Source: Guptibacillus hwajinpoensis
GTDB lineage: Bacteria; Bacillota; Bacilli; Bacillales; Guptibacillaceae
NCBI RefSeq assembly: GCF_020171785.1
Contig: NZ_JAIVAE010000009.1
Coordinates: forward strand, 1 to 64,000
Direction: 5' to 3'
Length of the DNA: 64,000 nt
This document shows, one piece after another, positions 8,452-10,535 of this stretch (position 1 is the stretch's first letter; every line of letters begins with the position of its first letter). The translations under genes and the position numbers were made by a program. The notes beneath the pieces were generated by a model. That model saw only the letters and a list, made by a program, of their open reading frames with translations, had not been told where the DNA came from and did not search any database.

Positions 8452-9261
8452 GTGAAATTGTTGGATAACATTTTAGGCGAAGGCTGGCAGGTTACGCCCG
8501 CTGGCGGAGCGACAGGCGAAGCATACTTAGCTCAATATGGAGACGAGAAATTATTCCTAAAACGGAACTCCTCGCCTTTTCTGGCTGTTTTGTCGGCGGA
8601 AGGAATTGTACCGAAACTTCTCTGGACCAAGCGACTTGAGAATGGAGACGTTATTACAGCCCAAAAGTGGTTGCCGGGGAGAGAACTGAAGTCCCATGAA
8701 ATGAAGCAGCCGCGAGTGGCACAAATGCTTTATAAAATTCATCGTTCTTCAGAACTTCGAAGGATGCTAAATCGTCTCGGGAAAAAACCTCTTTCACCAG
8801 ACGTCATTTATCAAGATTTATTACAAAAGTTTGAGAATCATCATCGAAAAGACGTTGAAGTGATTCGAGCCCTATCTTATCTGGCTGCTAATAAAAATGA
8901 TCTTGAGAACGTGGAAAAGGTTGTTTGTCATTGTGATGTCAATCATAATAATTGGATGTTTAGTGAGGAAGGGAATCTCTATTTAATTGATTGGGACGGA
9001 GCGGTTGTGGCAGATCCTGCATTAGATATAGGAATGCTGCTTTACTGGTACCTTCCGAAAGAGGAGTGGGAAGAATGGCTCACTCATTACGGATTGGAAA
9101 ATACAAAAAGCCTGCGCCACCGCATGTACTGGTATGTGGTAGCGCAGACACTCTTGTCTATCTATTGGTATGATCTTAAAGGATTAAACGGGGAAGTTGA
9201 ATTCTGGAAAAAAGACCTAGAGAATTTAAACCACTATCGACTTATTGATACCGATCAATAG
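8452..9261 (+). CDS. ytmP: Aminoglycoside/choline-kinase-like phosphotransferase YtmP
   Basis: A member of the APH/choline kinase superfamily. The Brenner-type catalytic motif is CHCDVNHNNWMF near residues 163-174 and the metal-binding segment is LIDWDGAVVADPALDIG. The natural substrate of YtmP is not known to me. The start is uncertain: GTG 8452, TTG 8458 or TTG 8461 are in frame. AAGGTG at 8449-8454 best serves TTG 8461 (6 nt), which would give MLDNILGEGW. The gene follows amyX, as in B. subtilis, but has its own promoter signal. Its 3' end overlaps the converging ytzH by 20 bp, and its terminator-like hairpin lies inside ytzH. Confidence 0.88.
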   Translation: MKLLDNILGEGWQVTPAGGATGEAYLAQYGDEKLFLKRNSSPFLAVLSAEGIVPKLLWTKRLENGDVITAQKWLPGRELKSHEMKQPRVAQMLYKIHRSSELRRMLNRLGKKPLSPDVIYQDLLQKFENHHRKDVEVIRALSYLAANKNDLENVEKVVCHCDVNHNNWMFSEEGNLYLIDWDGAVVADPALDIGMLLYWYLPKEEWEEWLTHYGLENTKSLRHRMYWYVVAQTLLSIYWYDLKGLNGEVEFWKKDLENLNHYRLIDTDQ

Positions 9262-9520
9262 TATCAACCCACTGGCTAAGATAAGGCTGGTGGGTTTCTA
9301 TATGGTTTAATAAATTGGATTCTGTTGCTCCAGTAGCGCTATATTGTTGAATCTGACCAAGTACCTGCTTAATCTCTGGCGCAATACCTTCGTTTTGCTG
9401 TAAAGCTGTTGCCAAACGTTGAACTTGCTCACATTCCGAAGATGTTCCTGTGCAATCGATATGATGGTTCTTAAGAATGTCAGCCAGAATAAAAAGCTGA
9501 TCTCGATGTGAGAGTGGCAT
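9242..9520 (-). CDS. ytzH: YtzH-like family protein
   Basis: A 92-residue protein with the YtzH family start MPLSHRDQLFILADILKNH and two cysteines (DCTG, SECEQ) in the first third. The function of the family is unknown. It is soluble, probably helical, with no signal peptide. The ribosome site TAAGGAGG is excellent, but it can pair over 10 bp with TTCCTCCTTA 27 nt upstream in the same RNA (see inverted repeat). The gene converges on ytmP and overlaps it by 20 bp. The CydS-like gene lies upstream on the same strand, separated by a terminator. Confidence 0.9.
   Translation of the reverse strand: MPLSHRDQLFILADILKNHHIDCTGTSSECEQVQRLATALQQNEGIAPEIKQVLGQIQQYSATGATESNLLNHIETHQPYLSQWVDTIDRYQ
9266..9296 (+). 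terminator. Hairpin for ytmP embedded in ytzH coding sequence
   Basis: An 11-bp stem with G-T pairs (9266-9276 with 9286-9296) lies 5 bp after the ytmP stop and inside the 3' end of ytzH. The following bases (TCTATATGG) are a weak T-tract. Confidence 0.45.
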
Positions 9521-9525
9521 GAATT

Positions 9526-9572
9526 TTCCTCCTTATTTGTACTACTAAATAGCGTGTGCATGTAAGGAGGAA
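9526..9572 (-). promoter_or_regulatory. Inverted repeat able to sequester the ytzH ribosome site
   Basis: TTCCTCCTTA (9526-9535) and TAAGGAGGAA (9563-9572) are exact inverse repeats with a 27-nt loop. In minus-strand RNA the upstream copy is a perfect anti-Shine-Dalgarno for ytzH. On the plus strand the right copy would be a ribosome site for an ATG at 9575, but that frame runs into the cydS-like gene on the other strand and is not credible. Confidence 0.45.
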
Positions 9573-9589
9573 TTATGCTATCGCTATAC

Positions 9590-9614
9590 GAAAAAACACG
9601 GATTTCTCCGTGTT
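9590..9614 (-). terminator. Terminator of the CydS-like gene
   Basis: In minus-strand sense AACACGGA, loop GAAA and TCCGTGTT are followed by a run of T. It starts 9 nt past the stop of the 31-codon gene and supports that gene being real and on the minus strand. Confidence 0.8.
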
Positions 9615-9622
9615 ATGGCTTA

Positions 9623-9718
9623 TTATTTTGTATCGCCTTTTGCACCCCATCCGAAAAGCGCAACAATGGAAACAATGATCACAATCCATGGTGCCCACAT
9701 GATAAGAAAGTGTTCCAC
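9623..9718 (-). CDS. Cytochrome bd oxidase small subunit CydS-like micropeptide
   Basis: A 31-residue, single-helix membrane peptide that begins MEHFLIMWAPWIVIIVSIV and ends in a short charged GAKGDTK tail. The N-terminal FLIM-aromatic-AP pattern, one helix and a Gly/Lys end closely resemble CydS, the third subunit of Bacillales-type bd oxidase, as I recall the Geobacillus sequence. A GTG start is preceded by GAGGAGGGTGAAGAA, an excellent ribosome site, and the stop is followed by a clean terminator. No cydAB genes lie in the window, so this would be an orphan copy. It could instead be an unrelated small membrane protein; homology search is decisive. It was found by reading; it is too short for usual gene callers. 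Confidence 0.75.
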   Translation of the reverse strand: MEHFLIMWAPWIVIIVSIVALFGWGAKGDTK

Positions 9719-9893
9719 TTCTTCACCCTCCTCTCTCTCCATATCATAACTGAAATGTAGGGAGTTTCACCACATCATTTTTTACAATTTGACTACTATT
9801 TCATACCCTTTCCACCACCTTTCTATTCTTATGATTTCATGGTAAAATGTCGATTGTGTAAAAACGGTAATTAGACTATAAGGAAGTGAACAT

Positions 9894-10535
9894 ATGCGTC
9901 AACGAAATAAACCCTGGGCAGAAGAAATGTTTGCAGAGCATCCACAATTCGTACCCACCACCCCTTCCGAAAGAAAAGGGAACTGGAAAGACGTCTTTCA
10001 AAATAACAACCCCATTCATCTAGAAGTCGGAACGGGGAAAGGGCAATTTATAATTGGCATGGCGAAACAGAATCCTGATGTGAATTACATTGGTTTAGAA
10101 TTATCGTCAAGTGTTATGGTGTCTGCTTTAGAAAAGTTAATCGTAGAAGATGTGCCGAATGTTCGCTTGCTGAATGAAAACGCACAAGATCTTCAATCGC
10201 TTTTTGAAGAAAATGAAGTAAGCCGCATTTATTTGAATTTTTCAGATCCTTGGCCAAAAAATCGCCATGAAAAAAGAAGACTTACCTATAAAACGTTTTT
10301 AGATTTGTATCGTGTTGTGATGAGCCCGAAAGGCGAAGTTCATTTTAAGACAGATAATCAGGGCTTATTTGAATATTCCCTTCACAGTTTTTCTGCATAC
10401 GGCATGACGTTAAATCATGTAAGCCTTGATTTGCATCAAAGTGGTATGGAAGATAATGTGAAGACTGAGTATGAAGAAAAGTTTTCATCAAAAGGAAGCC
10501 GGATTTATCGGTGTGAAGCAAAATTCAGAATTTGA
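9894..10535 (+). CDS. trmB: tRNA (guanine-N7-)-methyltransferase
   Basis: SAM-dependent enzyme that makes m7G46 in the tRNA variable loop. It shows the SAM site [10 protein letters not shown] near residue 43, the second motif [11 protein letters not shown], and the family signature [16 protein letters not shown] (around residues 117-132). The length, 213, equals B. subtilis TrmB (YtmQ). AAGGAAGTG precedes the ATG. Transcription is probably from the 175-bp interval after the CydS-like gene, which is divergent. A strong terminator begins within the stop codon. Confidence 0.96.

Follow-up and report, generated by a model that had tools for sequence, protein, structure and literature searches.

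A cydS gene apart from cydAB, between ytzH and trmB in Guptibacillus hwajinpoensis, and its likely Geobacillus-type bd oxidase partner

Gene content of the ytzH-trmB interval

The window (the whole stretch of 64,000 nucleotides analyzed) carries a 31-codon gene on its minus strand, translated as MEHFLIMWAPWIVIIVSIVALFGWGAKGDTK, with a GTG start at 9718-9716 and a TAA stop at 9625-9623 (Table 1). The original prediction, made from the DNA letters, described such a gene with an AGGAGG ribosome site and a terminator 9 nt past the stop, and all of these were seen at 9623-9718. Its placing between ytzH and trmB was borne out by profile matches for both neighbors. The terminator comprises an 8-pair stem (9614-9595) and a TTTTTT-rich tail beginning about 9 nt past the stop. 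An ATG further upstream in the same frame would give 39 aa; this start is present in the window, but was rejected as it is not conserved in the genus. Separately, a conserved stretch upstream of ytzH (9530-9560, TGCACACGCTA...TAGTAC) was found in 12 of 14 congeners.

Table 1. Coordinates of the genes and signals at the locus, and of the cydAB pairs of the same genome
Feature	Position	Strand	Description and evidence
cydS, 31 codons	9623..9718	minus	single-helix CydS-family peptide
Ribosome binding site, AGGAGG	9727..9732	minus	8 nt before cydS GTG; read from sequence
Candidate cydS promoter	9743..9770	minus	TATGAT -10 and weak GTGAAA -35; consensus scan and congener alignment
Intrinsic terminator of cydS	9595..9614	minus	AACACGGAGAAATCCGTGTT then T-rich tail; sequence and congener alignment
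ytzH	9242..9520	minus	neighbor and synteny marker; PF14165, 96 bits
trmB	9894..10535	plus	neighbor and synteny marker; NF001080/TIGR00091 over cut-off
cydAB pair	C9:117387		ythAB-like; nearest pair, about 107 kb from cydS, same contig
cydAB pair	C7:207603		canonical; other contig
cydAB pair	C2:299445-301798		Geobacillus-type; other contig

Family assignment and conservation in the genus

The 31-residue peptide matched the Pfam CydS family (PF22282) at 46.9 bits against a cut-off of 25 (hmmscan). It also matched 5doq_C, the CydS chain in the solved bd oxidase of Geobacillus (phmmer, E = 6e-4). Both matches bear out the resemblance to CydS stated in the original prediction. The CydS hallmarks are present: a length of about 30 aa, one hydrophobic helix and an M-x-x-FL-x-x-x-AP N-terminus. 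CydS of Geobacillus thermodenitrificans (PDB 5DOQ chain C, PF22282) has the same length, the same single helix and the same M-x-x-FLIM-aromatic-AP start. A search of the NCBIfam profiles returned no CydS model match, and no match to the CydX/YbgT family was obtained at E up to 1 (hmmscan, Pfam and NCBIfam). TatA/TatE was likewise rejected, with sub-threshold NCBIfam matches only (9.9-11.2 bits vs. cut-offs of 53.9-102).

Conservation was assessed in 14 genomes of the genus, among them Pseudalkalibacillus (now Guptibacillus) hwajinpoensis, P. spartinae and Alkalihalobacillus macyae. The ORF was intact in 14 of 14, in the same ytzH-trmB gap and preceded in every case by a Shine-Dalgarno-like site; the terminator was kept in about 12 of the 14, and the TATGAT -10 element in most. 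Codon changes were mostly synonymous (pN/pS about 0.035-0.27), and the non-coding flanks had diverged, unlike the frame, on which purifying selection acts in all 14. A chance ORF is ruled out by the 46.9-bit match, the frame intact throughout, the mostly synonymous changes and the diverged flanks together. The gene is very short and begins with GTG or TTG in some strains, as might be expected of a decaying relic or a spurious ORF, but selection on the frame, the conserved ribosome site and terminator, and the intact copies in all congeners make that reading extremely improbable. The gene is a genuine cydS.

Distribution among genera

Conservation of the peptide and its frame had been set beforehand as a point on which the original prediction could fail, and the prediction survived. 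Besides the congeners, ytzH-linked cydS was recovered in further genera, giving 20 genomes in five genera (beyond the window genus: G014 (P. caeni), G066, G031, G075, G384 and G176). The displaced copies from other genera scored 42-46 bits against PF22282, and the CydS core motif is retained in the ytzH-linked copies. All displaced CydS have Trp at residue 8, where operon-encoded CydS usually have Tyr, Ile, Val or Ala. Trp at this residue was also seen in two operon copies from Paenibacillus.

The C2-type oxidase subfamily was present in 20 of 20 genomes with ytzH-linked cydS, their CydB being about 75-100% identical to that of the window genome. Over both genome samples, a Geobacillus-type CydB (called at E below 1e-100) was found in 106 of 107 CydS-positive genomes. 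The lone exception (G092) aligns to a congener (G053) on both flanks of its missing cydAB, and its cydS was therefore left behind by a deletion. The stranded gene (L228, G092:C1:3474500-3480500, at about 1886-1966 on the minus strand) lies beside a permease gene, cydAB having apparently been deleted from a cydABS operon. Within the first genome set, 25 genomes had no Geobacillus-type CydB, many of them with a ythAB-like CydB, and CydS was found only in G092.

The stable ytzH/trmB synteny in 20 genomes could also be taken to mean that a membrane peptide was recruited to a function outside bd oxidases, for example one linked to ytzH or trmB. However, ytzH was present in 81 of 101 genomes, most of them with no CydS peptide beside it, so that cydS tracks the CydAB subfamily and not ytzH; it also has its own terminator and keeps the CydS core motif. 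We consider such recruitment very unlikely.

Several further arrangements were observed. In G192, cydS precedes cydA. Two tandem CydS-family ORFs follow one cydB in G081 (L108/L010, G081:C5:15838-16061). In G019 (L104, G019:C6:63775-63831), a peptide of 28 aa, MNVVPLFIVLFSLLILFLWGSTDSQRFK, comes after a second and more distant CydB; the peptide scored 21 bits against CydS (below the cut-off) and is possibly a diverged CydS. Weak CydS matches, among them those in G042 and G032, were judged on inspection to be due to chance.

cydAB pairs of the genome and the likely partner

No cydAB was found within the 64-kb window, as the original prediction had stated. Searching the rest of the genome for cydAB or ythAB and for a second cydS returned three cydAB pairs, none adjacent to cydS, and a single CydS over the PF22282 cut-off. 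The nearest pair, on C9, is labeled ythAB-like from its protein sizes and neighborhood, by comparison with B. subtilis. Compared with 5doq_A, the subunit solved with CydS, CydA scored 598 bits for the C2 pair, 392 for C9 and 184 for C7, and C2 CydB scored 417 bits against 5doq_B; among solved structures, CydA and CydB of G. thermodenitrificans (5DOQ) are nearest to the C2 pair. A Geobacillus-type CydAB is thus encoded in the window genome.

A place directly behind cydB is the usual rather than a defining context of CydS. It was occupied by cydS at 27 of 27 C2-type loci of relatives (in one of them, L018 of G066, cydAB itself is broken), including that of the closest CydS match (G026/L013), whereas the window cydS lies between ytzH and trmB. 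No small membrane ORF follows the C2-type cydB in the window genus; the next gene starts with LKKQFAVIGLGRFGGS, and we take it from its sequence to be trkA/ktr-like. In the one-contig congeners (G007 and G010), cydS is about 1.4 Mb from the C2-type cydB. Two irregular loci were also noted. One congener (L051, G004:C4:463181-464195) has its C2-type cydB split between two frames near the 3' end and keeps the displaced cydS. In G066, a Geobacillus-type cydAB is broken and is followed by an intact cydS (L105/L018, G066:C12:15000-18500); the same genome has the displaced cydS and, in addition, an intact cydAB of the C2 type.

By homology and co-occurrence, the C2 CydAB is the most likely partner of the displaced CydS. 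The peptide might instead have gone over to another partner, such as the ythAB-like oxidase on C9 or the canonical CydAB on C7: both oxidases are present in the window genome, no small-subunit gene was recognized beside either pair, and the C2-like CydAB subfamily can exist with no detectable CydS. However, G075 and G384 have ytzH-linked cydS and no ythAB-like CydB, the only one of the 25 first-set genomes with CydS and no Geobacillus-type CydB is the deletion leftover in G092, and C7 CydA is only distantly related to the CydS-bearing type. A switch of partner is accordingly unlikely. The original prediction had offered two alternatives, a small subunit encoded far from its complex or a related peptide with another partner; the first is the better supported, by the co-occurrence and by the phylogenetic tie to a cydAB subfamily whose relatives have operon-encoded cydS.

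Phylogeny of CydAB and apparent loss of CydS

In a maximum likelihood tree of concatenated CydA and CydB, the C2-like subfamily formed one clade (UFBoot 94), with genomes carrying ytzH-linked cydS at the base of both of its subclades (support 97 and 77). No cydS was linked to the C2-like cydAB in G029 or in the 23 sequences of a derived crown. Profile searches of 24 genomes of this kind recovered only a separate operon copy in G023, and no diverged cydS was found in the CydS-less branch, either in the ytzH-trmB gap or behind cydB. CydS appears to have been wholly lost in this related branch. One relocation and two losses would be the simplest history that fits the tree, a reading partly dependent on the node of support 77. 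Since no CydS is detectable in a derived branch of the same CydAB subfamily, displacement probably preceded loss.

Positions conserved in CydS-bearing oxidases and altered in the CydS-less crown were compared between subunits, a test chosen after the pattern had been seen. They made up 14 of 243 in CydA vs. 2 of 171 in CydB (P = 0.019 at thresholds of 0.75/0.35; P = 0.045 and 0.097 at two other settings). Control clades showed no excess in CydA, and some had an excess in CydB (opposite sign). The strictest altered positions of CydA, with helices assigned by hydropathy, were L35 and W42 (TM1), G244 (end of TM6), I295 (Q-loop region) and L335 (TM7). In the structure, CydS contacts TM1, 5, 6 and 7 of CydA (PMC8951039). 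It is suggestive only, given a modest and threshold-dependent signal, that these changes mark the CydS interface.

Upstream regions of cydA and cydS

The sequence TTGTGATACTTGTCACAA lies upstream of the C2-type cydA and, over the extent of the examined loci, is conserved within the genus; a perfect TTGTGA-N6-TCACAA precedes cydA in the window genus and in G014, G176 and G384. We take this palindrome to fit Rex sites and, in its core, Fnr sites, as known for these Bacillota regulators. No Rex/Fnr operator was found in the cydS upstream regions, where the best site had 3 mismatches and most had 4 or 5. From this difference, CydS would be under control separate from that of cydAB, and its supply probably does not follow that of CydAB, which is redox-controlled.

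Discussion

The window gene is, with good probability, the relocated CydS of a Geobacillus-type bd oxidase, acting in trans with the C2 CydAB under separate control. Its product would be the one-helix accessory subunit of a cytochrome bd quinol oxidase of the Geobacillus type, with a short Q-loop. The move of cydS, from its place after cydB to the interval between ytzH and trmB, would have happened in an ancestor that the window genus shares with several related genera. At its present place cydS has a ribosome site and a terminator to itself, and probably a promoter as well. By homology, the peptide is expected to insert in the membrane, pack against CydA of the C2 oxidase and help heme or complex assembly, as is thought for Geobacillus CydS. 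More tentatively, cydS may through its displacement have escaped the redox control that acts on cydAB, so that CydS became a subunit dosed on its own and possibly facultative; the CydS-free bd oxidase of the sister branch would have arisen by way of this intermediate, while CydA changed in compensation. We regard this extension as possible but somewhat doubtful.

Separately encoded subunits have precedents, and a displaced CydS therefore varies a known theme. CydH/CydY (ynhF) of E. coli bd-I is likewise a one-helix subunit encoded apart, outside the cyd and app operons (PMC8951039); it differs from CydS in its position in the TM1/TM9 cleft of CydA, belongs to another sequence family and is proteobacterial. 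Orphan CydX homologues, as in Cellvibrio japonicus, place an accessory gene away from cydAB in a few genomes (PMC4325964), although the resemblance of CydX to CydS is described as one without homology (PMC13189123). Migration of small-subunit genes has been suggested (PMC5322542). A literature search of open-licence papers found no report of a displaced CydS.

Searches for small subunits are often confined to the neighborhood of cydB and therefore miss displaced copies, so that some oxidases may be wrongly called two-subunit. Since one oxidase subfamily shows the series of operon-encoded, displaced and absent CydS, the contribution of CydS is directly testable, and the same series would also allow testing of how a membrane complex loses a subunit.
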